64,000 nucleotides of DNA from Dokdonella sp. (GTDB lineage: Bacteria > Pseudomonadota > Gammaproteobacteria > Xanthomonadales > Rhodanobacteraceae). The notes under the pieces were generated by a model. That model was not told the DNA's origin. It saw only the letters and a list, made by a program, of their open reading frames with translations, and searched no databases. The position numbers and the translations under genes were made by a program. The DNA is taken from NCBI GenBank assembly GCA_023228465.1, contig JALOBC010000005.1, positions 1 through 64,000 of the forward strand, given 5' to 3'. Positions within the stretch are counted from its first letter, which is position 1; the number at the start of each line of letters is the position of its first letter. Shown piece by piece: positions 3,001 to 20,616 of the stretch.

Positions 3001-5157
3001 GACCAGGCCGCCGCCCGTGAGGCGAAGCTCGCCCCGTTGTTGAACGGCGATGCCGTGCAGATCGCGGGATCGCTCGAGGCGGTCCACGAAGCGCAGGAAG
3101 GCATCCGCGACCTGCGTCGATCCAGGAGAGTGCTGGAATCCGTGCAGGCCTGGTTGCCGCACGATTCAGGCGCATGGCACAAGACCGTGCTCGAGCGCTT
3201 CGCGTCTGCGCAGGCCTGGCGCAAGCATGAAGCTGCAATCGCAGGGGTGAGGGTTATCTTCCAGCATGTTGACGGTCGCACGCCTGCAGCGGAACTGCGG
3301 TTGCTGCACGCCCGCTTTGCGAAGGATGCCGCACGCGTTGCGGAACTTGACCGGTTGCTGGACCAGGCGAATGCCGTCGACCCTCGGGGCGCGGAAGCAA
3401 TCGCGATTTGCCACGATGCCACCGTGCCACACTGGTCGGATGTGCTGCTCAAGGCTTGGGCGCTGCACCGCCTGGACTCCGCCGAGGATGCACTGCCACG
3501 CGAGCTCCGGACGGGGTCGGTGGACGACCATGCCACCCTCGAGCTGAGCGAAATACTGGGCGCACGCACCCTAGCCAGCCGGGTCCGGGTCATGGACCGG
3601 GTCAATTCGGCGCCGCTCCTGCAGGTGCCTCCGCCCGAGAAGCGCGCGCGTCGGACTCCGCAGCAGGCCACGCGCGAGGATCTCCTGCGCGAGGTTTCCA
3701 AGCAGCGCAGGCTCCTGCCGCTGCGCACCTTCGTCCGCAACTACGCGGAGCGCGGCGTGTTCGACGCCATTCCGGTGTGGCTGGTCTCACCCGAAACACT
3801 CGCCGTGCTGTTCCCCCGCAAGCCGATCTTCGATGTCGTGATCTTCGATGAAGCCTCACAATGCACCGTCGCCAACGGGTTTCCTGCGTTGCTGCGCGCG
3901 CGGCGTGTGGTCATCGCGGGAGACGACCGGCAGATGCCGCCGACCGCCTTCTTCAAGGCCGGCCGTGGCGAGATGGAAGCGGACGAGGCGGATCCGGTCG
4001 ACGGGGTCCTGGAGTCGGAATCGCTGTTGACGCTGGCCCGCCAGAGGGTGCCGGCGAAACGCCTCGACTGGCATTACCGCTGCCGCGATGAGGACCTGAT
4101 CGCGTTCTCCAACCACTCCATGTATGAAGGGACGCTCCTGACGGCGCCCGTATCATCCAGGCCACAGGTTCCCCCCGCGCTGCGGTGGGTTGCCGTTCCG
4201 GACGGACGTTACGAGGACGGCAGGAACGAGGTCGAGGCCGAGAAGGTCGTCGACGTACTGCAGGAGATCCTCGGCCGACCCCACAAGCCCACCGCGGGAA
4301 TCGTCACGTTCAACCTTTCCCAGCGCCTGGCCATACTGGACGCGATCGACAGCCGGCGCGCATCCGATGAGCAGTTCGCGCGCCTGTTCACCGCCGCCGA
4401 TGCAGCCGAGCAGCTCGACGACCGGCCGTTCGTGAAGAACATCGAGAGTGTTCAGGGCGACGAGCGGGACGTGATCATCTTCTCCCTGGGCCACGCCCCG
4501 GTCGAGCGGGTGCACAAGTCACGTGGCGTGCAGCACTATGTGCCCGCCAGGTTCGGACCTCTGGGACAGCGGGGCGGCGAGCGCCGTCTCAACGTGGCGG
4601 TCTCGAGGGCACGTCAGGAAGTGGCCGTCGTGGCCTCGTTCCACCCTGACCAATTGAGCGTGGCACGCGCCAAGAATGATGGGCCGCGCCTGTTCAAGGC
4701 CTACCTCGAGTACGTTTTCCACCTGTCATCGGGAGCCCGGAGCCAGGCGGCCCGCACCCTCGACCTGGTTCGCTCTGGACCCCAGCGCTCCGCTCGAGAA
4801 GCGATTTCCTCCTCGCTCCCGGGCCATGTCCCACTCGCCGGGCAGCTGGTCGACCTGCTGCTGGCCAGCGGTCATGAAGCCACCTCGAACGTGGGAGCCT
4901 CACCTTTCAAGGTGGACGTCGCCATCGAGGGTGAGTCGGACGGCACGCCCTACCGCATCGCGATCCTGTGCGACGAAGGCATCGACGAGGACGGGCCGTA
5001 TCGCCGCACGCAACGCGCGGCGCTCCTGAGGAATCGAGGCTGGCGGGTGTTCCACGTCGACGGCCTCGAGTGGCTGCGCGACCGGGATGCCGTGCTGGAT
5101 CGCGTCAGGCGGGCCATTCGGAAGGAAGCAACCCACGAAGCGAGTTTTACTGAATGA
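4..5157 (+). CDS. TerB-like / SF1 helicase / C-terminal nuclease fusion protein (5' end may lie outside window)
   Basis: A 1717-residue protein predicted to act on nucleic acid in defence. Residues about 114-220 are two helical acidic repeats resembling TerB/TerB-like domains. A superfamily-1 (Upf1-like AAA_11/AAA_12) helicase follows: Walker A GPPGTGKS at 653-660, Walker B FDEAS near 1281, GDDRQMPP after it, and RRLNVAVSRARQE near 1527. About 600 residues of helical insertion separate motifs I and II, as in DUF4011-type helicases. Residues about 1613-1717 look like a Vsr/MTES_1575-type restriction-endonuclease fold, with D1638 in FKVDVAIEG and a later ILCDEG stretch. The frame opens with TTG at base 4 and could run further upstream, so the start is uncertain. 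The stop lies within an ATGA. Domain assignments come from motif reading. Confidence 0.8.
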   Translation: MLAARDLDALLRLEMVATTGLPADDLGGDTAGYLAQCRELVEGCLAGGDTAQGVTHPEHGVRAWAAWLFSESDLYHELTGLGPGTRPIDEVDALIERVLRKPGLDGSFQYLEKPPVELHELALACAVLVAVADEVLSDEEAEVIERTFASLVPDWRSFLAPEHAAQRLEELAPVARAWGPGFLRPLFNLLMHVLASDGVAESREFARIVEIGRLLDGEELFKAMLRPTLRRIAIDEREQQQAKPLPVRVKDTVEALDAYLASVVRRGSAGATLRHLLRLLGETGRTGPALAKIEAALRQAGLKCDAELPGIDLDQEFTLVVEHAGPEKPREAPPAPDELKRAIQRLRDELISGDGRSPSIRLRECRVGRSFDLYALSRVSVGHAERCLALAQAGRRVVLVDGEQTGQSRDAASLLRQLVELRREHHARREESGARDLYLGTGFLRGVIDGYVVRAPLMLQPVELELDGGGGMALVQVRDEPAVANQALLRLIHLKAGMPLSEELALELDTNAGDPAVGLSAITDHLKRIGIDVFALDTDLRALDALDEDVPTWKGRRLEQEGCVVLGLFPQSRSELLHDYEQLLSELAQRGADASALLGCANEILPASMRPAAPAEPATAMDGAAPALVIGADPSQVEVVRLASKVPALVVDGPPGTGKSQVIVNLVADALARGERVAVVSEKRAALDVVANRLAGSGFEEIFGVVHDPVDDRKELFRKIRSRLEGLTEPGPAGAPDASPDALAERMRKRIRHLRHRQEGEPSLGHLAVFAAGQTAPVPAAMPRLGHLPIASALKLGKLAAVGRTWTDLLAEGSPWRPSATATRRSLAGTSPEERAEMATQLAAAAETAHAVEAVAKQQGVEPAQAATGVEALLASNKALRSLKSDFAHLAELLEAADDPCEPLLALRADWLGESAAWSAFPAPVRGSATPEFRAAVVALLGRSGSPLRFLSMEWWRQRAMVTRQLANFWPDAVGRRLDVACLKDIHQRLRLASLWERRDQAAAREAKLAPLLNGDAVQIAGSLEAVHEAQEGIRDLRRSRRVLESVQAWLPHDSGAWHKTVLERFASAQAWRKHEAAIAGVRVIFQHVDGRTPAAELRLLHARFAKDAARVAELDRLLDQANAVDPRGAEAIAICHDATVPHWSDVLLKAWALHRLDSAEDALPRELRTGSVDDHATLELSEILGARTLASRVRVMDRVNSAPLLQVPPPEKRARRTPQQATREDLLREVSKQRRLLPLRTFVRNYAERGVFDAIPVWLVSPETLAVLFPRKPIFDVVIFDEASQCTVANGFPALLRARRVVIAGDDRQMPPTAFFKAGRGEMEADEADPVDGVLESESLLTLARQRVPAKRLDWHYRCRDEDLIAFSNHSMYEGTLLTAPVSSRPQVPPALRWVAVPDGRYEDGRNEVEAEKVVDVLQEILGRPHKPTAGIVTFNLSQRLAILDAIDSRRASDEQFARLFTAADAAEQLDDRPFVKNIESVQGDERDVIIFSLGHAPVERVHKSRGVQHYVPARFGPLGQRGGERRLNVAVSRARQEVAVVASFHPDQLSVARAKNDGPRLFKAYLEYVFHLSSGARSQAARTLDLVRSGPQRSAREAISSSLPGHVPLAGQLVDLLLASGHEATSNVGASPFKVDVAIEGESDGTPYRIAILCDEGIDEDGPYRRTQRAALLRNRGWRVFHVDGLEWLRDRDAVLDRVRRAIRKEATHEASFTE

Positions 5158-5610
5158 CGGCAACGCCAGCTCGCCGCAGCTTGGGCCGCATGGGACCAAG
5201 AGTTCGAGCACGTGCCGCAAGCGCCCGTCTTTCCAGAGTCTTGCGAGGAGCTCGAAAGCTGGGCAGAGGTCCACTGGGGAATGGCGGCCCGTACTGCTGC
5301 CGCAGGCCATCAAGTCCGCTCGGGAATCCGCCTCCGGGAGACCGCTTTTGCCTAACAAGTGATTCACCTCCTAACGCACGAGTACGTGAACGCCGCCGTC
5401 ATCCTGATGATGAGTCACCCAAGCACCGGCAAGAACAGAGCGCCGGCGAGGTATGGCGACGGCGAAAACTTCCAGTGGGAGCTACGACCAGACAGTGCAG
5501 TTCCGGCTTCTCCATTACGACGAGATGCGCGGACTCGTCATTGTGGGTCTCCTGCCTGCGCACCTGCGAGACTCAATCACAACCTGAGACAGCCCTCTTT
5601 AGGAGAGACC
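5158..5610 (+). other. Gap between helicase and caspase-like gene; possible gene remnants
   Basis: No clear gene here. The helicase frame stays open for 65 codons after its TGA, ending at TAA 5353-5355. It reads as protein-like (rich in Trp, Glu and Ala, e.g. SCEELESWAEVHWGMAAR) but has only a GTG or an internal ATG to start from. A second short open stretch lies at 5453-5587. Base composition turns clearly less G+C-rich towards the right. This looks like a junction with broken pieces of older genes. Confidence 0.4.
5453..5587 (+). CDS. Possible small ORF, 44 aa, unknown
   Basis: ATG 5453 to TGA 5585-5587 would give a 44-residue peptide starting MATAKTSSGSYDQTVQFRLL with a short hydrophobic run (GLVIVGLLP) near its C-terminus. 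The start has GAGG only two bases upstream, too close for a good ribosome site. It ends 23 bases before the start of the caspase-like gene, so it could be a leader peptide, a small partner, or the leftover 3' end of a lost gene. I do not recognise it. Confidence 0.25.
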   Translation: MATAKTSSGSYDQTVQFRLLHYDEMRGLVIVGLLPAHLRDSITT

Positions 5611-6249
5611 GTGATCGCTAACATCTACATGTTTGAAGGCGCCTGGGAGAAGGCGACAGAGCCGCCACAGATGCTCAAATTTATGCAAGCCTACGAACAA
5701 ACATTCCCCGGAACACGCGTTCACCACCGAAGCTTTCGCAATGGTGAGGACCTCGCCTATTACCTAGCGAAAATTCCTGCGCGCCAAAGGGCTCTGGTCT
5801 ACATAGCCTGTCACGGAGAAGTAGGGCTTCTCGATCCATCAGACAAGAAGAGCAGGATCACTATGGCGGCCCTTCTTGACATTCTCAAGAGCGCCTTCCC
5901 CCAACGCATAGGATTTCTTCATTTTAGTTGTTGCCACATACTACAACCTGATGACGGCCTTCGTCGCAAGTTGCTCGTGAGTTTGCAAGAGGCGTCAGGC
6001 GCTACGTTTGTTTCAGGTTATACAAAAGAAGTAGGTTGGCTGGAGTCGACTTTGCTCGATCTCGCCCTGATACACTCCGTCTACGTTGAATGGCGGGATA
6101 AGCCAACTCACGTCAGCAAGCCCATGAAGAGCCTGGAAGATCTTACAAGTGACTATAGGCCGCTTATCAAGAAGCTAGGGTTTTCAGCGATGTCCTCGTT
6201 CGGCAACAAGAACCAAGTTCTCTGGCCACGCAAAATATGTGGTCAGTAA
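5611..6249 (+). CDS. Caspase-like (clan CD) cysteine protease
   Basis: A 212-residue protein with the clan CD (caspase/CHAT) layout. A beta-strand leads into ACHGE (His68-Gly69), and about 40 residues later a second hydrophobic strand ends in FSCC (Cys107/Cys108), the expected His/Cys dyad. SGYTKEVGWLEST (135-147) resembles the loop after the catalytic Cys in CHAT-like peptidases. The start is GTG 5611, preceded by AGGAGAG at 5601-5607; the frame is open upstream to 5359, but that part does not read as protein. Base composition is lower in G+C than the neighbours, suggesting separate acquisition. In defence islands such proteases usually act as suicide effectors or processors of a partner. 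That role here, and any link to the flanking genes, is inference. Confidence 0.65.
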   Translation: MIANIYMFEGAWEKATEPPQMLKFMQAYEQTFPGTRVHHRSFRNGEDLAYYLAKIPARQRALVYIACHGEVGLLDPSDKKSRITMAALLDILKSAFPQRIGFLHFSCCHILQPDDGLRRKLLVSLQEASGATFVSGYTKEVGWLESTLLDLALIHSVYVEWRDKPTHVSKPMKSLEDLTSDYRPLIKKLGFSAMSSFGNKNQVLWPRKICGQ

Positions 6250-6448: not shown

Positions 6449-9082
6449 ATGCCGGGACCACAGGTGGATGCATTGATCAATCGAATCCGGCAAGCGCTGC
6501 CGCGACATGGCAGCCTGGATCACGCAGTGGAGGCCGTTCGGGCCGAGCTCAATTTCCTGTCTCCCGGTCTCTCGGAACAGCTTTCCCGAGAAATCGATGA
6601 AGCCACCGCCATCGTTGCGCTCGAGTTCGAGCAAATCGAGATTCTTCATAGCCATTCAATTTTCGGAAGACGTGCGAAGTGGTATTTTGGTCCCAGACCG
6701 ACGGATCTGCACTGGCCTGCGGTGAAGGACTTCCTTCTGAATGAAAAGGAGTGGCACGAGGCGGACGTGAGCGGCATAGATGACGCTTCCAATGAGGTCG
6801 TTTCCCTGCTGGAGAATCCGCGTGACCCGGAGAAGACTCAGTTTTCGTGCCGCGGATTGGTCGTCGGCCATGTGCAATCAGGAAAGACCGCAAACATGAC
6901 AGCGGTCATAGCGAAGGCGCTGGATGCCGGTTACGATACGGTCATAGTTCTCGCGGGTCTGACCAACAAGCTACGCCATCAGACACAACTTAGGCTGTAT
7001 TCCGATCTGGTGCAGCGTAACCCGATGAACTGGCAAATCCTCACGTCCAATGACGAGAGCAGGGACTTCCGGGCTCCCCCTCAGGGCGGGTTCCTTTCCC
7101 ATTCGGACAAGGCTCAGCTTGCCGTCGTCAAGAAGAATGTCTCGCCCCTTGGGGAATTGCGAAAGGCGATCAATGAAACATTGCCGGCTGTCCTGCGGCG
7201 ACTCCGGATCCTCGTCATTGATGACGAATGCGATCAGGCGAGTGTGAACTCTGCCGGCGGAGAGCTCGAGTTGACCGCGATCAACCAGCACATCCGCGAG
7301 CTGCTTTTCCGCTTGCCTGCCGCAACTTATGTCGGCTACACGGCCACACCTTTTGCAAATGTGCTGATCAACCCTTACAGGATGGATGGACAGGCACTCG
7401 ACGATCTCTATCCACGAGACTTCATCACTGCGCTTCCCTCGCCGGAGCGATACTTCGGTACCGAGCGGCTCTTCGGCGCAACGCCTGCCGATCCGGACGA
7501 CATCCAGCCTGACGAGGAAGGGCTGGACATGATCCGTGACGTACCCGCGGATGAGGAGGCGAAGCTGCAGCCACGCAGCATGCGTGAACGCGATGCCTTC
7601 CAGCCTGCGATGACGCCGAGTCTGGAGGGCGCGATTCTCTACTTCCTCGCATGCTGTGCCGCACGGCGCGCACGCGGGCATGCCCAGCAGCACATGACAA
7701 TGCTGGTGCATACGTCAGCCTGGGTCATCACGCATGAGCGGATGGCAGCGCTCATCACGGGATGGGTGGACACTCACCGGAACGATCTTGTCACCCGGAA
7801 ATCCCACATCGGATCGCAGCTCGAGCAGGTTTGGATGTCGGAACAGGGCAGATTGCCCGGGGATCTCACCGATGCCCGACCGGTCGGAATCGACGAGGTT
7901 TTCCATTACCTGCCGCAGGTGCTGAAGAACATCGAGTTTCCGGTCGAGAACGGCGCCAGCGACGACAGGATCAATTATCTCGAGGGGGCAAGAACATATA
8001 TCGTGGTGGGGGGATCCATTCTTGCCCGCGGCCTGACGCTTGAAGGTCTCATGGTCAGCTATTTTCTTCGTACGACCAGCCAGTATGACACCCTGCTGCA
8101 GATGGGCCGATGGTTCGGCTATCGCCCGGGCTACGAGGATCTGCCAAGAATCTGGATGCCAAGCGACCTGAAGCTCCGATTCAGGGCGCTCGCTACGGTC
8201 GAACAGGAAATCAGGGCGGACATCGAGCAATATCGCCTGCGTGACTTGACGCCCATGGATCTTGCGGTCCGGATCAGGGCCATTCCAGGCATGGCGATCA
8301 CGGCAGCGAACAAAATGCGCGCAGCACGGCGTTGTGCCGTCAGTTACTGGGGAACCCACCGCCAAACCTTCCGGTTCGCACATCGCGATCGCACCCTTCT
8401 GGAGAGAAACTGGGGCGCAGGAGGCGAACTCGTGAGCCGTGTCGAGGCGCTCGGCCTGCGTGATCGCGGTGGTGGGGGCCGGAAGCTCTGGCGAAATGTT
8501 CCCAAGTCGTCAATCCGCAGGTTTCTCGTGTCCTATTCGATCGAACCCTCCCATGCCGACCTTCAGCCGTCGATGCTGCTGCCATTCATCGACGGAGCGG
8601 GACCGCGACTTTCGACGTGGAACGTCGGTATCGTCGAATCCGGCCGTGGGCGTGATTCGGATAGTCCTCTCGGTACGATCGGGTCGGTCAGGACGGTCAA
8701 TCGCGCCAGGCTCAGGGGCGCGAACGGTGTCGCCGACGTCAAGGCCCTGATGTCCCGGAGCGACGTGGTGTTCGACTGTGACGCGCAGGTTGGCAGCAAC
8801 GGAAGCTGGGAGGAGCTTAAGTCGGCAAGGCTCGATGCTCTCGGAAACGTTCCGCTTCTTCTGCTCTACGCGATCGCAAGGGAGTCGCGTCCGGAACGCG
8901 AGAGCAAGGCAAGGGAGCCGCTTGATGCCGTGCGTGACGTACTCGGAATCGGTATCGTTTTTCCTGGATCGATCACCGAGGGCGGGAACTTCGTGTCGGT
9001 CGATATTCAGCCGCCCTCCGCAGAGGAGCTGGCGGCGATCGAAGAGGAGGAGTCCGCGCAGGCGGAGGCGGCAGGTGTCTAG
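6449..9082 (+). CDS. Z1 domain-containing SF2-type helicase/ATPase
   Basis: An 877-residue protein, the likely motor of the restriction/defence operon. Walker A is GHVQSGKT (140-147), followed by a helicase Ia-like stretch (VLAGLTNKLRHQ). Walker B is VIDDE (256-260), and YVGYTATPFANV is a motif III equivalent. The signature Z1 block follows: GGSILARGLTLEG near 520, then LLQMGRWFGYR, which includes the arginine finger-like segment. I chose ATG 6449 because GGGAGGA lies at 6438-6444; an upstream GTG at 6392 is in frame but has no ribosome site. Its 3' end overlaps the nuclease gene by eight bases. Z1 proteins are known next to GHKL ATPases and C5-methylases in predicted restriction systems, which is the arrangement here. 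Confidence 0.9.
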   Translation: MPGPQVDALINRIRQALPRHGSLDHAVEAVRAELNFLSPGLSEQLSREIDEATAIVALEFEQIEILHSHSIFGRRAKWYFGPRPTDLHWPAVKDFLLNEKEWHEADVSGIDDASNEVVSLLENPRDPEKTQFSCRGLVVGHVQSGKTANMTAVIAKALDAGYDTVIVLAGLTNKLRHQTQLRLYSDLVQRNPMNWQILTSNDESRDFRAPPQGGFLSHSDKAQLAVVKKNVSPLGELRKAINETLPAVLRRLRILVIDDECDQASVNSAGGELELTAINQHIRELLFRLPAATYVGYTATPFANVLINPYRMDGQALDDLYPRDFITALPSPERYFGTERLFGATPADPDDIQPDEEGLDMIRDVPADEEAKLQPRSMRERDAFQPAMTPSLEGAILYFLACCAARRARGHAQQHMTMLVHTSAWVITHERMAALITGWVDTHRNDLVTRKSHIGSQLEQVWMSEQGRLPGDLTDARPVGIDEVFHYLPQVLKNIEFPVENGASDDRINYLEGARTYIVVGGSILARGLTLEGLMVSYFLRTTSQYDTLLQMGRWFGYRPGYEDLPRIWMPSDLKLRFRALATVEQEIRADIEQYRLRDLTPMDLAVRIRAIPGMAITAANKMRAARRCAVSYWGTHRQTFRFAHRDRTLLERNWGAGGELVSRVEALGLRDRGGGGRKLWRNVPKSSIRRFLVSYSIEPSHADLQPSMLLPFIDGAGPRLSTWNVGIVESGRGRDSDSPLGTIGSVRTVNRARLRGANGVADVKALMSRSDVVFDCDAQVGSNGSWEELKSARLDALGNVPLLLLYAIARESRPERESKAREPLDAVRDVLGIGIVFPGSITEGGNFVSVDIQPPSAEELAAIEEEESAQAEAAGV

Positions 9083-10088
9083 ACCGGACCACGAGAATCA
9101 GTCGCACGGACGCTGGAGCGTCCTCCGTTCTGGGCGCATCGATGGCGATGGGCTCGGAATTCCTTCAGTTCCTCTCGCTGCCAGAACGCGGGCAGGCGCT
9201 GTCCGGCTGGCCATCGGATCTTGTGGAGAGGCGCGATTGCTCGTGCCGCTCGCCGCAGGCGAGAAGACGGGTGGTTTCGAGACACGCGGGTCCCTGCAGA
9301 TCGGCGTAACGACCCTGATGCATCAGCAGCGCGCAATCCCGTTTCTGGATGTGGTCTGCACGTCACCGGATCTCGAGTCGGTGTTTGGCGAAGTCGTCGA
9401 TGACATTGTCCGCCGTCTGGCCGATCGCAGCGACGGTGTCGATGCTGTCGCAGGTGCAATCAGCGACTTCCGTGCGCTGCTCGTTCCACCTTCGGAGAAG
9501 GACGTGGACGTGACGCGCGTCGTCGGCCTGGTTGCGGAGCTGGTGGTATTGAACCGGCTTCTTGACATTTCGCCATTGGCTTGGCGCAGCTGGAGAGGTC
9601 CGGCCGGGGATCGGCACGATTTCCGGGCTCGTGACACCTCGCTCGAGGTGAAGGCATCGCTTCATGCAGGGGCCAGCGAGGTCACCATCAATGGCATCGA
9701 TCAGTTGGAGCCACCCGCTGGCGGATCATTGCACCTCGCGCATCTCGTCCTCGAAATGGTCGAGGGCGGTCTCCTGACGGTGGCAGGCCTTGGAGAGAGG
9801 GCATTGCAGCGCGCCGATGATCCGGCGGGACTGCGTGCGCTATTCGCTTCGGTCGGGTGTGCCGATGTGCGGGACGGGGACTGGAACCGTTTCGCATTCA
9901 GGGCCGAGGCCGAACGTCTGTACCGCGTCGGCTGCGATTTCCCGCGGATCGCGCCATCGGTCTTCGTTGGTGGCCGGATCCCTTCAGGACTCGTCGATGC
10001 GACGTACATCATTGATCTGAGGCTTGCTTTTGATGCCGAGTGCCCGCCAGCAGAATTTGACTCCCTCCTCCACGAGTTGTGCCTGTGA
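9075..10088 (+). CDS. PD-(D/E)XK motif protein (putative restriction nuclease)
   Basis: A 337-residue protein starting at GTG 9075 inside the end of the Z1 gene, implying coupled translation. The nuclease core is visible: a conserved Glu in VGLVAELVVLNRL, then an Asp in GDRHDFRARD, then the E-V-K of SLEVKAS. This is the spacing of a PD-(D/E)XK site and matches the family annotated 'PD-(D/E)XK motif protein' (DUF4420-like) found beside Z1 helicases. It is the most likely DNA-cutting subunit, supplied with substrate by the helicase and ATPase. Its 3' end overlaps the start region of the next gene. Family assignment is from the motif and position. Confidence 0.8.
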   Translation: MSRPDHENQSHGRWSVLRSGRIDGDGLGIPSVPLAARTRAGAVRLAIGSCGEARLLVPLAAGEKTGGFETRGSLQIGVTTLMHQQRAIPFLDVVCTSPDLESVFGEVVDDIVRRLADRSDGVDAVAGAISDFRALLVPPSEKDVDVTRVVGLVAELVVLNRLLDISPLAWRSWRGPAGDRHDFRARDTSLEVKASLHAGASEVTINGIDQLEPPAGGSLHLAHLVLEMVEGGLLTVAGLGERALQRADDPAGLRALFASVGCADVRDGDWNRFAFRAEAERLYRVGCDFPRIAPSVFVGGRIPSGLVDATYIIDLRLAFDAECPPAEFDSLLHELCL

Positions 10089-10090
10089 TC

Positions 10091-11935
10091 ATGACATCAC
10101 TTTCGCTTCACTCCGAGCCTTACGGTTCGACGGGGAACATCGGCGAGAACTTCCGCCGTCTGCTCGGTGCGCCCTCGCTTGATCCGTTGCAGACGGTCAT
10201 CAGGGAGTCGGTGCAGAACATTGCTGACGCATCGCGGCCGGGTGTGGGGCCGGAGATCCTCATCAGGTTGCGGAAGCTTTCGGACGCCCAGCGAGACATT
10301 CTTCGCGACGCCGTCCTCGCGAAGCTCCCGGATGAGGGGAGTTCATCCGGGATGATCGCGGCGTTCCTGGAAGCCGAAGTCCCGATGGTCCTCGAAATAT
10401 GTGACTTCGGTACCATGGGGCTTGGCGGACCGACGCGAGCGGACCGTATACCCGTGGGAACTCGGCAAACCAACTTCATTGATTTCCTGCGCAACATCGG
10501 CACCGCGCGGGACACCGACCAGGGCGGCGGCACCTATGGGTTCGGCAAGGTCGCCCTTTATCGCGCGAGTGCCTGCAGCACCATCATCGTGGACACCCTC
10601 CCGAACGAAGCCGGGGTCGAGGGCCGGCGACTGATGGCGTGCCATGTGGGCCGATCTTTCGAGAGGCCTGAAAACGGGATGCTGCGGCGATTCACGGGTC
10701 GGCACTGGTGGGGCGTGCCGGACCCGGCAGATGGAGTTGCCGATCCGATGACAGGTGCTGCCGCCTCGAGTCTGGCCAATCAACTCGGTTTGCCGGAGCG
10801 TGCTTCCGACCGGACGGGAACATCGATCATGATCCTCGGTTTCGAGCCTGACGAGGCCGATCCAGCCGACACCGGGATTCGGATCATTGAGACGCTGCTT
10901 TGGAATTTCTGGCCGCGGATGATGGGCGATGCGCCCGCCAAGCACCGTTTCCGTTGCCGCGTAGAGGTCGAGGATCGGGAACTGCGCATTCCGGCGCCGG
11001 AGGAGCTCGCTCCGTTCGATCTGCTATGTAAGGCGATGACGGCGGTCAGGGCGCGCGAGGGCAATGATCTGCGTCGGATCGCGTCCATGAGGCCCAAGAA
11101 ATTCTTGGGTACTCTCGCGGTCGAAAAGGGCCTGGGATCGTCGAGGCGTCACCTGACTAAAGAAGACGTCCGGCTGGTGCCTGAGCGCATGCACCATATA
11201 GCGCTCATGCGACCTGTCGAACTGGTCGTGAAGTATCTTGAGGGCACTCCGCACCCCGACGCTCGGCTGGAGTGGGCCGGAGTGTTCGTCGCGAGCGACG
11301 AGCCCGAAGTGGAGCAGGCCTTTGCGGATTCGGAGCCACCCGCGCATGACGACTGGATCCCCGATAACTTGCCGCGAGGAAACGCGAAGCGCTACGTCAA
11401 CATAGCGCTCAAACGTTTGCATGAAATTGCCGCAGAAATGGGCATGGAGCAGATTTCACGTCGAACCGGGGATGGCTCAGGCCCTGCACTGGCGCGGCTC
11501 GCAGGGCGGCTTGGCGCGGTGCTCGAGGATGTCGGCGGTGATGGCGCCGCCCGTCGGCACGGTTCCGGAGCTTCCGGAGGCCGCCGTCCATTACGGGCGC
11601 GGGCGAGCCGTCCCGTGTTCCAGCGACTTGAGGAAGGCGAAACCGGTCGGGTCGCGGTCTTCGAGACGGAGGTGTCGCAGGATGCGCGGAAGAGCGGAGC
11701 GGTGCTGGTTGCCGCAGCATCGATCGCCATCGAAGGAACGGCTCTCGGAGCCGCCGACGAAACCTTGGAGAGGCCTGATGTCTTGTTCATCAGGTGGTTG
11801 AAGGGGGACGCCTCCGTCGACGGCTCCAAACTTCCCCTCGATGGCCGGGAAGGGCGGTTCGAGATTCACGTGCGCGTTCCGGATGAGTGCGCGGTGACCG
11901 CCGATGCGGAGGTCCTGCCGCAGGTGATGACATGA
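10091..11935 (+). CDS. GHKL-type ATPase, MORC/MutL-like (paraMORC)
   Basis: A 614-residue protein with the Bergerat ATP-binding fold at its N-terminus. Motif N is RESVQNIADA, with Glu39 (general base) and Asn43 (Mg/ATP). D105-F-G-T-M-G-L is the DxGxG box, and GGGTYGFGK at 145-153 is the glycine-rich lid. The C-terminal half is not recognisable to me. GHKL ATPases of this kind occur in restriction operons with Z1 helicases and were proposed as relatives of eukaryotic MORC proteins. The likely role is an ATP-gated clamp or loop-forming subunit. Start choice: ATG 10091 is preferred, but GTG 10085 would make a GTGA overlap with the nuclease gene and GTG 10079 is also in frame. The 3' end overlaps the next start by ATGA. 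Confidence 0.85.
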   Translation: MTSLSLHSEPYGSTGNIGENFRRLLGAPSLDPLQTVIRESVQNIADASRPGVGPEILIRLRKLSDAQRDILRDAVLAKLPDEGSSSGMIAAFLEAEVPMVLEICDFGTMGLGGPTRADRIPVGTRQTNFIDFLRNIGTARDTDQGGGTYGFGKVALYRASACSTIIVDTLPNEAGVEGRRLMACHVGRSFERPENGMLRRFTGRHWWGVPDPADGVADPMTGAAASSLANQLGLPERASDRTGTSIMILGFEPDEADPADTGIRIIETLLWNFWPRMMGDAPAKHRFRCRVEVEDRELRIPAPEELAPFDLLCKAMTAVRAREGNDLRRIASMRPKKFLGTLAVEKGLGSSRRHLTKEDVRLVPERMHHIALMRPVELVVKYLEGTPHPDARLEWAGVFVASDEPEVEQAFADSEPPAHDDWIPDNLPRGNAKRYVNIALKRLHEIAAEMGMEQISRRTGDGSGPALARLAGRLGAVLEDVGGDGAARRHGSGASGGRRPLRARASRPVFQRLEEGETGRVAVFETEVSQDARKSGAVLVAAASIAIEGTALGAADETLERPDVLFIRWLKGDASVDGSKLPLDGREGRFEIHVRVPDECAVTADAEVLPQVMT

Positions 11936-12840
11936 ACCGCCGGGTCGCGTACCCGTTCCTCACGCTTTCCGACGCTGCCGTGAAAGTATCGGCTTGGGAA
12001 GTTTCCCTCGACGGGGTCGCGTGGTCCGAACCGGGCGAGTTTCTTGCGGACTGGGACAATGCCAGCGATATCCATCTGCGAAGGACGTTGCACGTTAATG
12101 CCGAACTGGCGGCATCCGATCTCGGCATTCCCGTCGATCAACTCGCTCTGGCCGCTTCGGTGCGAATCGGTACGGGCCAGGGGCGGCTATCGCGGCTTGT
12201 CCTGTCCCGCGTGCGCCGGGAATTGCACGCGGACAGTCCGTCGTGGGAGTTCGAGCACGTCACCGAGGGCCGCAGTCTCTCGATTTTTCTCGATCTCCGG
12301 ACCGAGCTGCTGCTCGTCAGGTCACCCGCGACATTTTCGCCACTCTCGCCTCGGCATCCAGGTGACCGGCTCTGGTCCGAAAACACGAGGATCAGGCTCG
12401 AAGGTGAGGAGCCACGATTCCCCATCGAAAGCGTGAATCTCGCGCAGATGCTGGGCGACGGCATGGCGGGCGCTGCGCCGTGGTACCTGCACTGGTCACC
12501 CCGGGATTGGGGGCGCGACTTCCACGGGGCTGTCCGCCTCTATCTGAACGAGAGATCGAGTGACATCCTCGAGAGGATCGAAGGTGAAGACCCTGCGACA
12601 ATCCAGATCCTTTTGAGCGATGTCATGAGCCAGGTCTGCGAGCGTTTCCTCGCTGACCCCGAAGCCGAGTCGATGATGGAGTTGGCCGAGCCAGGTTCGC
12701 TGGGGGCCCAAGCCGCGATCTGGCTTCGCAAGGCTTGGCCCGGCAAGGATGCCGACTTCATCCGTTCCGTTCTCGAAAGTCGTCCGGGTTCCTTCCGCGC
12801 CACGATGCTTGCCCTCGCCGAACCGGGAGATCGCCAATGA
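11932..12840 (+). CDS. Unrecognised defence-operon protein, 302 aa
   Basis: I do not recognise a domain. The 302-residue product starts at ATG 11932, inside the ATGA that ends the GHKL gene, and ends inside the ATGA that starts the next gene, so it is translationally tied to both. The sequence is mixed alpha/beta, acidic (DILERIEGEDP), soluble, and without signal peptide, membrane segment or Cys/His cluster. An N-terminal stretch of alternating hydrophobics (residues 1-90) suggests a beta-rich domain; the C-terminal 80 residues are helical. Its fixed place between a GHKL ATPase and the last gene suggests a structural or target-recognition subunit, which is inference. Confidence 0.75.
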   Translation: MNRRVAYPFLTLSDAAVKVSAWEVSLDGVAWSEPGEFLADWDNASDIHLRRTLHVNAELAASDLGIPVDQLALAASVRIGTGQGRLSRLVLSRVRRELHADSPSWEFEHVTEGRSLSIFLDLRTELLLVRSPATFSPLSPRHPGDRLWSENTRIRLEGEEPRFPIESVNLAQMLGDGMAGAAPWYLHWSPRDWGRDFHGAVRLYLNERSSDILERIEGEDPATIQILLSDVMSQVCERFLADPEAESMMELAEPGSLGAQAAIWLRKAWPGKDADFIRSVLESRPGSFRATMLALAEPGDRQ

Positions 12841-13904
12841 TGTTCCTGCTTCCGAGGCTTCCCGGTCCGGCCTGCGAGGTGAGCGTTCGCATGTTTCTTG
12901 CGGAAGACCCCTCCAGGTGGGACGGATTTCATCCGGACAATCTTCCCGAACAGGTGCGTTTCGCCGCGACGGGCGGCACCCCAGTCACTTCTGCGCAACT
13001 TGCGGATCTGAGGCAGAATCTGGTGACTTTGGCCGAGCGCCATGGCTTTGGCCGCACCGCTGTCCGATTGTCTCTTGCAGACGTCGATGCCGAGATCGCC
13101 GGTTGGTTAGCGGAGTCGGAGCTTTTCTCGACCGGCGAGGCGCTCAGGGACGACGTTTGGGCATTTATCGCAGCTATCCTGGCGCCCGACATCGTGCATT
13201 GGCGATTCGGCGCCGCGATGGAGCGTTACGCTGGAGGCGTGCGAAATACGTTCCAGAGGCTCTGGATGCGCGGACGAGCCCTTGATCGCGGAATCGGTCA
13301 TCCGGCGCGGTGGCAGCTGCTCGAGGAGCTGAACGAGGATGCTCTCGTCCAGATCATCGAGCGACCGAGCATAGGCGGAGACGGCGTTCTGGCGCTTGCG
13401 GTCGCAGAGGCGTGGCTTCGGGCCGCACGACACCATGGAAGGCCGAGCATGGAAGCAATCATGCGACGCGCGATTCTGAAGATCCGTGTGCGCAACGAGA
13501 TTCGATCGCTCGCGGACCTTCCCCCGGGGGATTTGGCAAGTTTCCTTGACGAGGTGTTCGGCTGCGTGCCGAAGCCTGCATCACTTCATGTCGAGCAGCC
13601 CGGTAATCCTGCCACGCACCACGCCACCAGCAACCGGCAACCTGCGGCCGACACGAGAGTGCGGGATGAGGCTGAACTTTCCGTTTCCCGAGCTTCCGCC
13701 ACGGCGGCGATCCTCAGAGTGAAGATGGAGTCCAAAATGCGCGGATGGCTTTCTCCCAAATCGCAATCGGCGCTGGACGCCCTGAAGGATGGTCGGGTTG
13801 CCCTGGACCGGAGCGAACGGAACGCACTCGATTATCTGCTCGACAGGCTCTCGGGCGCAGGCGTCCTGCCGGATGACATCAAGGAATTGCAATCGGTGCT
13901 GTGA
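12837..13904 (+). CDS. Unrecognised defence-operon protein, 355 aa (possibly DUF6339-like)
   Basis: Last gene of the Z1 operon, starting ATG 12837 in an ATGA overlap (a second ATG follows at 12840). The 355-residue product is largely helical. It begins MMFLLPRLPG, has Trp/Arg-rich helices between about 95 and 190, a polar low-complexity linker near 245-285 and a short helical C-terminus. I see no catalytic motif. The opening LLPRLPG pattern recalls proteins annotated DUF6339 next to Z1 systems, but I hold that weakly. Its last 26 bases overlap the end of the convergent methyltransferase gene, so the two transcripts are complementary there. Confidence 0.75.
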   Translation: MMFLLPRLPGPACEVSVRMFLAEDPSRWDGFHPDNLPEQVRFAATGGTPVTSAQLADLRQNLVTLAERHGFGRTAVRLSLADVDAEIAGWLAESELFSTGEALRDDVWAFIAAILAPDIVHWRFGAAMERYAGGVRNTFQRLWMRGRALDRGIGHPARWQLLEELNEDALVQIIERPSIGGDGVLALAVAEAWLRAARHHGRPSMEAIMRRAILKIRVRNEIRSLADLPPGDLASFLDEVFGCVPKPASLHVEQPGNPATHHATSNRQPAADTRVRDEAELSVSRASATAAILRVKMESKMRGWLSPKSQSALDALKDGRVALDRSERNALDYLLDRLSGAGVLPDDIKELQSVL

Positions 13905-15471
13905 AGAGGGAGGTACCGGACCGTTCTCCGAGCTCTGATCCCGTAAGGGCGCACAGGAGAACCCGGGCGATCTGGCGCGCCAGAAACGGCGGTACGGCGT
14001 TGCCGACCTGCACGTACTGCTGGGTCCGGTTGCCGAGAAACAGGTAGTCATCCGGGAAGGTCTGCAGGCGAGCCGCCTCACGCACGGTAAGGCTCCGGCA
14101 TTGAAACGGGTCCGGATGGATGAAGTAGTGTCCGTCCTTGGAGATGTGGCTAGTGACCGTCGTGGATGGTTCACGGTGCAACTGGACCCGGAAACGGTCG
14201 TCGAAGACACCGCTACGCCAGTTGCGATGATTCGGGCTGAGTTCCACCGGGAAATCCGCCGCCTTGGGACTGTAACCGCGGACTTTGCCGAAGACGGCAG
14301 CGAAGAGATATCGCCGGAGATCCGAAGCCATGTGACCGCGGGTCTCGTGCTGGGCGAAGCCGGCCAGCGCAGGGCGCTCCAGCCAGGCAGCAAGCGCATC
14401 GCTCGACGATCCGTAGCTTTCGGGAAGGCGCTGCGACCGACGGGGTGGCAGCACTCCATTCTCCAGATCCGCTGCGACAGCCGAGAAGGCGTCGCGCAGC
14501 GGCCTACCTTCCTTGTGCCGGTGGAGTCCCGCCAGTGATCGGGCTGCGTCGACGACGTCGCTCCGCCAATTCTCGGGATCGTCGCGCCCCCGGCTGAGGC
14601 CACTGCGCAGAGCAGGCATCATGCCGATTGCATCATCCACGGTTCGCGTCATCGCGTCGACTCGTATGCCCGTTCCGGTGGTTCGATGGGCCAGATCGGA
14701 TCGGATGCCGACAATGATCACGCGATGACGGCGTTGCGGAACCCCGAACTCCTCGGCACGCACGATGAAGTCCGAAGACTGCGCCGCTTCTTGCAGACTG
14801 ATCCTGCCGTCGGCCACCCGGATCGCGCGGATCTCGTAGTGATGCAACCGGCCGGTGCCGAGCGAAGCGAGATCGTCCATCAGCATCTCGAACACGAAGC
14901 GGCTTTCGACTGTCGAGGACAGCATCCCCTTCACGTTTTCCATGACGAAGGCCGCAGGACGCAACCGGTCGAGCACCCGGATGTATTCACGGAAGAGGTA
15001 ATGCCGCTGGTCCTCCTCCGGCACATAACCGATTTTTCCCTTCGCCCGCGCCCGTCCTGCAAGCGAATAGGCTTGGCAGGGCGGGCCTCCTATCAGGATG
15101 GTGTCGTCGTAATCACGACGCAGTATGCCGATGGCGCGATCGATGGCGGCAGCAGCCTGTTCGCTTCCAAGTTCGAGACATCGAGCCTCCGCCGTTGCCA
15201 GCCGCCAAGCCGCCGCATCGACCTCGCTCCAGGCGGGTTCCGGGGTCAGCCCGGCATGGAAGTCGATGAGAGCCCGCGGCAACGCCGAATGGCGGTTCCT
15301 GTACGCTCTCTGGAACGCCCGCAAAGTGAGCGTTCGATGTGCCGAAGCTTCCTTCTCGACCGAGATTCCGATCCGGAACGGCGTACGACCGTCGACGTCG
15401 AGCGACGCGAAACCCTCGCCCAGCCCGCCCGGTCCGGCGAACAAGTCAACGATGCCGAAAGTAGCAGGCAA
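13879..15471 (-). CDS. DNA (cytosine-5-)-methyltransferase
   Basis: A C5-cytosine methyltransferase of about 530 residues, the protective enzyme of the island. The motifs appear in order: I FAGPGGLGEGF (SAM binding), IV GGPPCQAYS with the catalytic Cys, VI ENVKG, VIII RRHRVIIVG, and X QVGNAVPP at the C-terminus. The region between VIII and X, the target-recognition domain, is long, consistent with a specific recognition site. The start is probably TTG 15471 (MPATFGIVD), with AGAGG nine bases upstream; the frame is open further but reads poorly there. It converges on the Z1 operon with a 26-base overlap and is divergent from the vsr gene across 62 bases. Confidence 0.9.
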   Translation of the reverse strand: MPATFGIVDLFAGPGGLGEGFASLDVDGRTPFRIGISVEKEASAHRTLTLRAFQRAYRNRHSALPRALIDFHAGLTPEPAWSEVDAAAWRLATAEARCLELGSEQAAAAIDRAIGILRRDYDDTILIGGPPCQAYSLAGRARAKGKIGYVPEEDQRHYLFREYIRVLDRLRPAAFVMENVKGMLSSTVESRFVFEMLMDDLASLGTGRLHHYEIRAIRVADGRISLQEAAQSSDFIVRAEEFGVPQRRHRVIIVGIRSDLAHRTTGTGIRVDAMTRTVDDAIGMMPALRSGLSRGRDDPENWRSDVVDAARSLAGLHRHKEGRPLRDAFSAVAADLENGVLPPRRSQRLPESYGSSSDALAAWLERPALAGFAQHETRGHMASDLRRYLFAAVFGKVRGYSPKAADFPVELSPNHRNWRSGVFDDRFRVQLHREPSTTVTSHISKDGHYFIHPDPFQCRSLTVREAARLQTFPDDYLFLGNRTQQYVQVGNAVPPFLARQIARVLLCALTGSELGERSGTSLFTAPIAIP

Positions 15472-15533
15472 AACGGAAGCCTCTGAAGGGAGTCGACCTG
15501 TATACCATGTCAGGGCGCAAAGGCCAGGGGTCC

Positions 15534-16016
15534 ATGACGGATATCGTCGACAAGGAGACGCGCTCCCGGATGATGTCCGGGATCCGCGGCAAGGACACCA
15601 AGCCGGAGATGGTGCTTCGGCACGCACTCCATGCGCGCGGCCTACGGTACCGGCTGCACGACAGGAAGCTCCCTGGGCGGCCGGATCTGATTCTTGCGAA
15701 ACATCACGCCGTCATCTTCGTTCATGGCTGCTTCTGGCATCGTCACGAAGGTTGCCGCTACGCATCCACGCCTGCTACCAACAGCCAGTTCTGGGCTGAG
15801 AAATTCGCCGGCAATGTGAGGCGCGACAACGCAAACCGCCATGCACTGATCGCAGAGGGGTGGCGCGTTGCTACGATCTGGGAGTGTGCGCTACGCAATC
15901 TGGACCATGTGTCTGCGACTTGTAGTTTGCTCGCTGCTTGGCTGGACGACACGTCCGCCACCATCGAGATCGGTGAAAGGAGTGCCAAAGGCGATCAACC
16001 GTCACAGACGAGGTGA
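15534..16016 (+). CDS. vsr: Very short patch repair-type endonuclease (Vsr)
   Basis: A full-length Vsr-like protein (160 residues). It opens with the family's DNA-binding helix (DKETRSRMMSGIRGKDT). The active-site Asp is in LPGRPDLIL, and the metal/zinc residues are in FVHGCFWHRHEGC. Vsr nicks the T of T:G mismatches left by deaminated 5-methylcytosine, and so accompanies C5-methylases such as the divergent neighbour. In some clusters a Vsr-fold protein is instead the restricting nuclease; the sequence alone cannot decide. ATG 15534 is chosen because AGGGG lies just upstream; ATG 15507 is in frame but lacks a ribosome site. Confidence 0.9.
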   Translation: MTDIVDKETRSRMMSGIRGKDTKPEMVLRHALHARGLRYRLHDRKLPGRPDLILAKHHAVIFVHGCFWHRHEGCRYASTPATNSQFWAEKFAGNVRRDNANRHALIAEGWRVATIWECALRNLDHVSATCSLLAAWLDDTSATIEIGERSAKGDQPSQTR

Positions 16017-16730: not shown

Positions 16731-17615
16731 TCACCTCTTCACGGGGAACTCACGCACGTTATCCCGATACGGCTGGACCGCCCAGGCACGGTGAATATGT
16801 GCGCTTCGCCTCCTGAGATCCTCTTCGGCGCTCATCTGGTCGTACGCCTGCACCAGCTTCCCGACCGCCATGATCGGCTTCCGTCCCTTTGTCTTCCACA
16901 GCCCGGAAATAAGCGAGCGCAGGGCGACCGCGCCCTCAGGCCAGTCGCGGTGCAGGCCATCCAGCTCCGGGTTCAGTCGCGTCAGCGTGACCAGGTCGTG
17001 GCCAAGTTGGGCTTCCGGCTCAAAGCCGCCTTCGCCGTAGCACCAGAGCTTGCCGAGATCGTGCAGCAGTGCGTACGCGATGCCGAGATCGCGGTCGCTG
17101 CCTGGCAGCGAAGGCGTCTCTGCAACACGTTCGGCGATCTCCAGGGTATGGGCGGCAAGCCCGCCACGATATGCGTGATGGTGGGCTTGCGAGGCGGGAC
17201 AGGTCCAGAAGTTGTGGAACACCCGGCGCAACTTCCAGATGTCGTTGATCAGCCGGACCAGCGCCTCGTGCCGGATGCGGTCCACGACGTGCCGCAGTCT
17301 TGAAACGATCTCTTCGTCCGCCCCGAAGTCCTCCGGGATGAGATCGAGGACGGGAGCTTCCGGCTCGAACTCTATCGCCGTGGCGACCCACAACGTGTCG
17401 GCATCGATGCGGCAAGGGACCAGCGTTACCCGCGCGGGATCGACGTGGAGATCGTCGGCGAGCACGAACGGCGGGCACCAGGTGGCGATAGCGTAGGCAC
17501 CGTCGTGTACATACAACTTGAACCGGATGGGCGCGAGGCCGTCGTCGAGCGTGTATCCCCAGCGATCGATGACGCCGGTCGTGACATGGACGGGACAATC
17601 CGTTGATGCAGTCAT
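16731..17615 (-). CDS. HD-domain protein of the integration module
   Basis: A 294-residue protein with an HD phosphohydrolase-like core. A His-rich segment HHHAYRGGLAAHT (about 180-192) is followed by LLHDLGKLW, giving the H...HD metal-binding pattern. It resembles HD domains of MobH/TraI_2-type proteins and YhaM-like exonucleases carried by integrative elements. The substrate is unknown. The start ATG at 17615 has AAAGGGAAG upstream on the minus strand and overlaps the stop of the preceding small gene by ATGA. Its 3' end lies 20 bases from the IS remnant, so the element may have been truncated there. Function in transfer or maintenance is inference. Confidence 0.7.
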   Translation of the reverse strand: MTASTDCPVHVTTGVIDRWGYTLDDGLAPIRFKLYVHDGAYAIATWCPPFVLADDLHVDPARVTLVPCRIDADTLWVATAIEFEPEAPVLDLIPEDFGADEEIVSRLRHVVDRIRHEALVRLINDIWKLRRVFHNFWTCPASQAHHHAYRGGLAAHTLEIAERVAETPSLPGSDRDLGIAYALLHDLGKLWCYGEGGFEPEAQLGHDLVTLTRLNPELDGLHRDWPEGAVALRSLISGLWKTKGRKPIMAVGKLVQAYDQMSAEEDLRRRSAHIHRAWAVQPYRDNVREFPVKR

Positions 17616-18010
17616 CGTGGGCTTCCCTTTGTAATGGACGTGGTCGCGGGCACCCGGGTGTGCGCGCTTGATTGGCCGGCACGGCCTGGGGCGGTCATCC
17701 GCCGAGCGACCGGACGCTCTTGTCGGCAGTGTGGTGGGCGCCTTCTCACGGCCGGTTGCCGCGGCGCGACCTGTCCCATATCCGGGACACTGGCCAGGTG
17801 CTTCGCGGCTTGCCGGGCCATTTTCCGGAGCGTGGGGAGGACCCATGCGAGGCTGTCGGCGCTGCATGCGTGCGGTTGCTGGCACTCGTGCTCGGCGACC
17901 ACTCGACCCGCGCTGATCACCCACAAAGTCAGACGGTCGAGCGGACCGTTGTCCGGCAGGTAGGCCTCCAGCGTGTAGCCGAGGAAGCTTCCTGTTGAGA
18001 TGAGCTGCAT
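17612..18010 (-). CDS. Small hypothetical protein of the integration module, 132 aa
   Basis: No recognised family. The product starts MQLISTGSFLGYTLEAYLPD, has a folded-looking first half (two beta-strand-like segments and a helix), then a basic, proline/arginine-rich tail that may be disordered. It starts 9 bases after the integrase stop and ends in an ATGA shared with the HD gene, so it belongs to the xis-int-HD transcript. I accept it as real mainly because of this tight packing. Confidence 0.6.
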   Translation of the reverse strand: MQLISTGSFLGYTLEAYLPDNGPLDRLTLWVISAGRVVAEHECQQPHACSADSLAWVLPTLRKMARQAAKHLASVPDMGQVAPRQPAVRRRPPHCRQERPVARRMTAPGRAGQSSAHTRVPATTSITKGSPR

Positions 18011-18019
18011 GGCTTTTCC

Positions 18020-19387
18020 TCAGGTTGTGGGCGGGAGCGGTGGTGCTGCCCTCGCCTTCTTGCGGGACCGCGGACCGCCGCGGCGCTCGCCGGCCAGCAT
18101 CGCCCTCAGAGCGTTCCGGAGTTCCTCAGCTCCCATCGATTCCAGGTCGTTGACCTCGGGCGGGCTCGAAGCCGGCTGCGGCTTGCTGCCTTGCCGGCTC
18201 AGCAGGCCTGCGAAGGCGAGGCCGTCCTGTCGGGTCAGGTTCGGCACGAAGCGCGAGTAGACGGTGAAGAGCATCTGGGTGTTGGTGTGCCCCATGAGCC
18301 GGGCGATCCATTCCGGGTTCTCGCCCGAGGCCAGCATAAGCGTCGCGGCGGTGTGCCGGGTCTGGTAGGGCCTGCGCTTCTCAAGCTCGAGGTAGCGCAG
18401 CAGGGGGTACCAGATGCGGTTGGCGAAGTTGTGGGCATCGATCGGATGGCCTGCGCGGGTCTGAAACACGTACTCGTCGTTCGGGCCCCGCGCGTTCCAC
18501 TGCTGCTCCAGGGCCTCCCTGACCATCGGGAGCATCGGGATGTCACGGATCGAGCTCTCGGTCTTGGCGTTCTCTTCCGCCTCGCCGGCCGAGAACGTCT
18601 CCCGAACCCGAATGACTTCATGGTCGAAGTCGACGTACTTCCACTTCAGCCCGTTGATCTCGCCGGTGCGCATGCCGGTGAAGAAGCGGCAGGTGACGTA
18701 GTTCCGGTAGTCCGGACGGATGGTGGCCCGGATCCTCTCGACCTCTTCCAGCGAGAATGGTTTGACGTCGGGGCGTCGTCCCTTGAGCCGCCTCACGCCC
18801 TTGAAGGCATCCGGCGTCCCGAAGCGCTCGCTGGCCTCGGTCAGGCACTGGCGCAGGAGGCCCATCGTCTTGTTGATCGTGGTCGGGGACAGCTTCGGGC
18901 TGGAACGGCCGGGCAGTTCCGCCAGCTTTGCTCTGAACGCCATCACATCGGCCTTGGCGATGGAGCCGACCGGCCGGTCACCGAACTCCGTGAGCAGGTG
19001 CGCGTCGAACGTCGCATCCACGCTGTCCCGGTGCTGGCGCCGCCACTGGGGCGCCATCTCCTTCCGCCACGTCACGGAAAAGTCGGCGAAGGTGGGCGTA
19101 TCGGAAGCGATTGGACCTGCGGCTTGAGGAGCGCCGGCCGGAAGGATCCCGTCGGCGCCTACACCTGGTCCGCGGAACTGGGCTGCCCTTGGACTCCCCG
19201 GGAACGTCGCCGCATAATCGAACAAGCCCTGCTTGATCTCCTTCGATACCCGGTTCATCAAGGCCTGTACCCGGCGACGGTTCTCCGCGGTGTCAGGCAG
19301 GGCCGTCTGCTCTCGGCAACGGACGCTTCTGTAGAAGAAGTCCAGGTAGAGCATCCCCGTCTCAGGACGGGCACGAACCTTAGCCAT
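18020..19387 (-). CDS. int: Tyrosine-type site-specific integrase
   Basis: A 455-residue tyrosine recombinase. The N-terminal segment (RPETGMLYLDFFYRSVRCRE) matches the arm-binding domain called DUF3596. A core-binding SAM-like domain follows (about 100-200). The catalytic domain has Arg in FFTGMRTGEINGLKW, the His/Arg box TRHTAATLMLASG, LMGHTN, and the nucleophile Tyr in LFTVYSRF. It would insert or excise the island, and the tRNA-Met gene about 1.2 kb away is the obvious target. Its start overlaps the xis-like gene by eight bases, so both are made from one message. No frameshift is seen, so the enzyme may be active. Confidence 0.92.
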   Translation of the reverse strand: MAKVRARPETGMLYLDFFYRSVRCREQTALPDTAENRRRVQALMNRVSKEIKQGLFDYAATFPGSPRAAQFRGPGVGADGILPAGAPQAAGPIASDTPTFADFSVTWRKEMAPQWRRQHRDSVDATFDAHLLTEFGDRPVGSIAKADVMAFRAKLAELPGRSSPKLSPTTINKTMGLLRQCLTEASERFGTPDAFKGVRRLKGRRPDVKPFSLEEVERIRATIRPDYRNYVTCRFFTGMRTGEINGLKWKYVDFDHEVIRVRETFSAGEAEENAKTESSIRDIPMLPMVREALEQQWNARGPNDEYVFQTRAGHPIDAHNFANRIWYPLLRYLELEKRRPYQTRHTAATLMLASGENPEWIARLMGHTNTQMLFTVYSRFVPNLTRQDGLAFAGLLSRQGSKPQPASSPPEVNDLESMGAEELRNALRAMLAGERRGGPRSRKKARAAPPLPPTT

Positions 19388-20539: not shown

Positions 20540-20616
20540 TGGTGGCTATGGGTGGGATCGAACCACCGACCTCGGGATTATGAGTCTCGCGCTCTAACCG
20601 TCTGAGCTACATAGCC
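20540..20616 (-). tRNA. tRNA-Met (anticodon CAT)
   Basis: A 77-base cloverleaf on the minus strand. The acceptor GGCTATG pairs with CATAGCC, followed by discriminator A and an encoded CCA. The D-arm is GCTC...GAGC, the anticodon loop CTCATAA (anticodon CAT), and the T-arm GGTGG-TTCGATC-CCACC. The sequence resembles elongator tRNA-Met. The anticodon stem CGAGA/TCCCG holds one A-C mismatch at its third pair, which is unusual. The gene is intact and followed by a terminator. Confidence 0.92.

Follow-up and report, generated by a model that had tools for sequence, protein, structure and literature searches.

The first five of seven adjacent genes in the 64,000-nucleotide Dokdonella stretch analysed here (the window, part of a 119-kb contig in a 3.42-Mb genome of 99 contigs) form a core that is found in constant order across distant bacteria, and the C5-cytosine methylase and Vsr genes beside it form an exchangeable cassette. 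A preliminary description of this DNA had taken the seven genes as a single restriction-like system; the restriction-like reading stands, but the idea of one fixed seven-gene form gives way to a fixed five-gene core accompanied by an exchangeable methylase-vsr cassette. The helicase, the nuclease and the MORC-like ATPase of the core, together with its subunits D and E, are likely to make up a bacterial defence machine, and the methylase-and-repair pair would mark the host's own DNA. The features concerned are the following (aa, amino acids):

6449..9082, plus strand: helicase, first core gene
9075..10088, plus strand: core subunit B, a DUF4420 PD-(D/E)XK nuclease of 337 aa, distantly MzaD-like (Pfam DUF4420, 2.9e-36; PADLOC MzaD, 3e-7)
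10091..11935, plus strand: core subunit C, a paraMORC2-like GHKL ATPase of 614 aa (PADLOC PDC-M33A, 5e-12)
11932..12840, plus strand: core subunit D, 302 aa, no family; predicted immunoglobulin-like beta-sandwich with a C-terminal helical part
12837..13904, plus strand: core subunit E, 355 aa, relatives match DUF6339; predicted all-helical
13879..15474, minus strand: C5-cytosine methylase of the long lineage, exchangeable cassette (Pfam DNA_methylase, 6.1e-44; TIGR00675, 136.5 bits, cut-off 100.65)
14368..14697, minus strand: variable region of the methylase, residues 311-420 of the long frame, from the conservation profile
15507..16016, plus strand: Vsr endonuclease of 169 aa, with an alternative ATG at 15534, exchangeable cassette (TIGR00632, 139.5 bits, cut-off 97.85; Pfam Vsr, 6.4e-30)

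The gene classes proposed in the preliminary description (Z1 helicase, PD-(D/E)XK nuclease, GHKL ATPase, C5-methylase and Vsr) are supported, as is its statement that the helicase, nuclease, GHKL and methylase motifs are intact. The methylase, the start of which is uncertain (its frame is open to 15627), carries PCQ, ENV and QxRxR, which we take to be C5-methylase motifs, and scores above the TIGR00675 cut-off, as a C5-cytosine methylase should; its best PADLOC match is DrmMII (6.7e-79). Vsr keeps E34, D60, H78 and H80, presumably its catalytic residues, and scores above the TIGR00632 cut-off, as a Vsr endonuclease should. The median pairwise identity of the methylases is 0.22 in the variable region versus 0.52 in the catalytic parts, and from its position the variable region is taken as the putative target-recognition region. 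The nuclease retains E155, D182 and E191xK193, the helicase is of the superfamily II (SFII) type with DThhQXuRhFG in its C-terminal domain, and the ATPase conserves what we assume to be the GHKL motifs.

The comparative-genomic prediction named in the preliminary description is indeed found in Iyer, Abhiman and Aravind 2008 (PMC2292703), the main text of which presents a third operon type that combines a distinct SFII helicase, a restriction endonuclease (RE)-fold nuclease, MORC or paraMORC, Dcm and Vsr. The window has in common with that type the helicase DThhQXuRhFG, a nuclease with E-D-ExK in the adjacent RE-fold protein, a GHKL ATPase with ExxxH (paraMORC2) and Dcm/Vsr neighbours. The passages of that main text considered here describe neither subunits D and E nor a constant order of the five genes nor cassette exchange, and the operon may be drawn in the figures or supplement of the article.

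Core loci, designated here by L numbers, were taken as the best 80 of 319 relatives, and the five-gene set co-occurs in 75 of the 80, so that the recurrence in other genomes on which the preliminary description depended is upheld. Of the 80 loci, 72 yielded a C5-methylase and 62 a Vsr; where the sequence extends 3 kb or more beyond the core on each side (52 loci), the methylase is present in 50 and Vsr in 45, in line with the frequent Dcm and Vsr of the third operon type. The cassette can stand on either side of the core and in either orientation, with methylase and Vsr most often divergent. On Rhizobium and Agrobacterium plasmids (L003 and L004), the core lacks DUF4420, and in front of it stand an AAA ATPase gene and one with the annotation TGBp1 or UvrD-like; here DUF4420 may have been replaced by another nuclease.

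The separate histories of core and cassette are apparent in pairwise identities, compared across 52 loci in which all seven genes are complete and the methylase belongs to its main lineage. The five core proteins intercorrelate at 0.75-0.89 and methylase with Vsr at 0.56, and the correlation of the core with methylase, variable region or Vsr is 0.14-0.25; controlling for the ATPase domain, the variable region correlates at 0.51 with Vsr and at no more than 0.22 with any core part. Individual pairs illustrate the exchange. The cores of L018 and L022, both from Pseudomonas, are 80% identical (71-85% per protein) and their methylases are unrelated, and the variable regions of L012/L016 and L014/L016 share 37% and 24% identity, with cores that are, respectively, 83% and 76% identical. 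In a comparison of four such swap pairs with six controls, no core stretch of 30 residues drops in identity only with a methylase change.

With linkage set at 35% identity and 70% of length, the methylases of 69 loci plus the window divide into five lineages, made up of 55 rows, 10 rows, 3 cyanobacterial rows and two singletons. The 55-row lineage includes the window's methylase and has one member of 395 aa, the others being 493-582 aa long; members of the 10-row lineage, in which L006 and L051 are the same DNA, span 322-365 aa. When lineage labels are placed on a FastTree phylogeny of four core proteins (72 rows, several of which drew warnings from the tool on long branches and unusual letter make-up), 10 changes are needed, or 7 with the count restricted to methylases no more than 1 kb from the core, the minimum possible being 3; the 7 changes are forced by starred branches. 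Lineage B, with 5 rows within 1 kb, showed no clustering on the core tree in label shuffles.

The cassette is also found away from this core. In a survey of 398 Pseudomonadota genomes for the methylase type and for gene E, the five-gene operon is absent from 17 of the 19 further genomes that have a full-length methylase relative; the second refuting finding named in the preliminary description, a methylase that regularly occurs apart from the operon, thus applies in the letter. The restriction-system reading survives this result because an Mza-like set is present in 11 of those 17 genomes and, in the remaining 6, defence-type genes of other kinds lie close to the methylase. L091 and L092 combine a PDC-M33A-type ATPase and two small genes with the same methylase-Vsr cassette. 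The same methylase type has a DrmB homologue nearby in L089 and SspG/SspH homologues nearby in L090, so that DISARM-like and Ssp-like clusters may be among those it serves.

The ATPase has no solved relative by sequence. ExxxH (E415xxxH419 in the window) is present in 84 of 84 rows, as expected of paraMORC2 if its location in the S5 fold is assumed, and recurs at a similar place in the PDC-M33A-type ATPases of L091 and L092; in three MzaB-like proteins checked it is far earlier in the chain or absent. In the third operon type of PMC2292703 an S5 domain comes after the GHKL ATPase; the main text places the ExxxH of paraMORC2 C-terminally within S5 and gives MORC proper a GhXhhpXXRhl motif in S5. 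Profile comparison relates the window's ATPase to the PDC-M33A type (hhalign probability 98.6, E 8e-16, with two sequences on that side, among them that of L092), in keeping with its match to the PADLOC candidate PDC-M33, and finds no relation to MzaB (probability 0.2), for which there was no PADLOC or NCBIfam match either. To judge by sequence, the ATPase is thus nearer to the paraMORC2 description and to PDC-M33A than to MzaB. That same text gives paraMORC2 as predominantly cyanobacterial and Gram-positive, unlike most core loci here, which are from Pseudomonadota; this excess may reflect sampling or a separate branch. In three Prochlorococcus and Cyanobium loci (L083, L085 and L086), a second, distant ATPase of the same type lies beyond the methylase on the opposite strand.

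The two remaining core proteins are, as had been stated, without assigned function. Among 73 gene D rows, at most 2 match any one Pfam family (E up to 0.1), and 48 of 75 gene E rows, the window's own not among them, match DUF6339, a family of unknown function. Subunit E has several invariant Arg and Asp residues, and its predicted model (mean predicted local distance difference test score, pLDDT, 84.5; predicted template-modelling score, pTM, 0.70) gave no fold match in structure comparison.

Several known systems invite comparison. Mza (MzaABCDE) is named in NCBIfam for an antiphage role, and the likeness of the DUF4420 protein to MzaD extends to NCBIfam (3e-8), at only 33 bits against a cut-off of 420. 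The helicase is related to MzaC (PADLOC, 3.8e-83), but its NCBIfam score is 354 bits, with the cut-off at 1500. The seven window proteins include no match to MzaA, MzaB or MzaE, subunits D and E have no detectable relation to MzaE (an AIPR protein), and among loci L003-L086 MzaA is absent and MzaE is confined to the far end of L055. Likeness to the DISARM class consists in the DrmMII match, and none of DrmA, DrmB and DrmC is among the matches listed for the seven proteins (25 of 59 families for the methylase). The Corynebacterium diphtheriae BH8 island, as presented in the text of PMC5379612, differs in additionally having an EcoRII-like endonuclease. The nearest biochemical precedent is CglI, which, with NgoAVII, belongs to the stress-sensitive restriction systems described in PMC4267653; these comprise three genes, without GHKL ATPase, D or E, their nuclease unites PLD and B3 domains, of which B3 provides the subunit's own DNA binding, and the text of that article considered here makes no mention of Vsr. 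No PLD-family nuclease or B3 domain was matched by Pfam in the seven window proteins at E up to 1.

The surroundings of the system point to mobility. On one side of it lie

16731-17924: TraI_2-type protein
18020-19387: tyrosine-type integrase
20540-20616: tRNA-Met

and a 25-base stretch of the tRNA-Met 3' end, its extent judged by eye, recurs with 2 mismatches near 10954 of another contig of the genome, C26, at a point where no tRNA gene was found. These elements are consistent with an integrated island, and the C26 piece may mark its distal attachment site. A transfer of the system from one bacterial class to another is probable, because its closest core relatives (about 78-80% identical) are from Paracoccaceae, Roseobacteraceae and other Alphaproteobacteria, and the window's genome is gammaproteobacterial. 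Upstream of the core are

4-5157, plus strand: DUF4011/AAA helicase with an MTES_1575 nuclease domain, 1717 aa (PADLOC PDC-S37, 1.8e-149; NCBIfam ProA, 530 bits against a cut-off of 1500)
5359-6249, plus strand: 296-aa protein, no Pfam match

The former is a second defence-type gene; the latter, without homologue in loci L003-L106, contains 'ACHG' and a later 'SCC' that, in our view, resemble a putative caspase/CHAT-type His-Cys pair.

We hold it somewhat more likely than not that core and cassette work together as a restriction system, with a fixed five-subunit core and an exchangeable methylase. Several observations weigh against it. The correlations between core and cassette are weak, not zero (permutation p 0.005-0.05, 199 permutations), and main lineage A is mildly clustered on the core tree, being as little scattered in 29 of 500 shuffles; because of these two results, some co-inheritance or co-adaptation of core and methylase exists. 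Among the core proteins, DUF4420 has the lowest identity between L018 and L022 (71% versus 80-85%). Variable-region identities are near saturation, with limited power as a consequence, and identity is not specificity, since one motif may be read by dissimilar variable regions. At distances of 1.4-9.4 kb from the core, four of nine lineage-B methylases and that of lineage E may be chance neighbours, and two of the five remaining lineage-B rows drew tree warnings, L028 for a join of long branches and L025 for letter make-up. Finally, L031 and L082 have cores without a methylase within 13 and 22 kb of sequence.

The last observation would also suit a core that acts in defence independently of methylation, like a re-partnered Mza, with methylase-Vsr as a travelling cassette that settles beside many defence operons. 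The inheritance of the methylase module apart from the core and the varied company of the methylase type (Mza, PDC-M33A-type ATPases, DrmB and SspG/SspH homologues) speak for this view, which we nonetheless regard as unlikely: a C5-methylase on any side and in any orientation near 50 of 52 flanked cores suggests that the methylase is needed even when it is replaced. Also unlikely, in our view, is sequence recognition by a core subunit itself. The DNA-binding B3 domain of CglI, the weak correlations of core and methylase and the beta-sandwich of subunit D would favour it; against it, no core stretch drops only with a methylase change, an unrelated methylase lineage lies beside an 80%-identical core, and Vsr tracks the variable region better than any core part does. 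Highly improbable is a role in DNA repair, in which the MutL-like GHKL ATPase, helicase and nuclease would extend Vsr short-patch repair at methylated sites. Vsr does co-occur with the core and an analogy with MutL is drawn in the main text of PMC2292703, but Vsr travels with the methylase and not with the core, and the patchy distribution (gene E is present in 3 of the 398 genomes), the island-like location and methylase exchange fit mobile defence better.

A bolder reading, which we regard as possible but less likely than not, is that the core is an ATP-driven five-subunit nuclease without sequence recognition of its own that uses the adjacent C5-methylase as its recognition or veto unit. 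If so, one cassette swap would re-target the whole system, and the same cassette would be common to this core, to Mza, to PDC-M33A-type ATPases and perhaps to DISARM-like or Ssp-like clusters.
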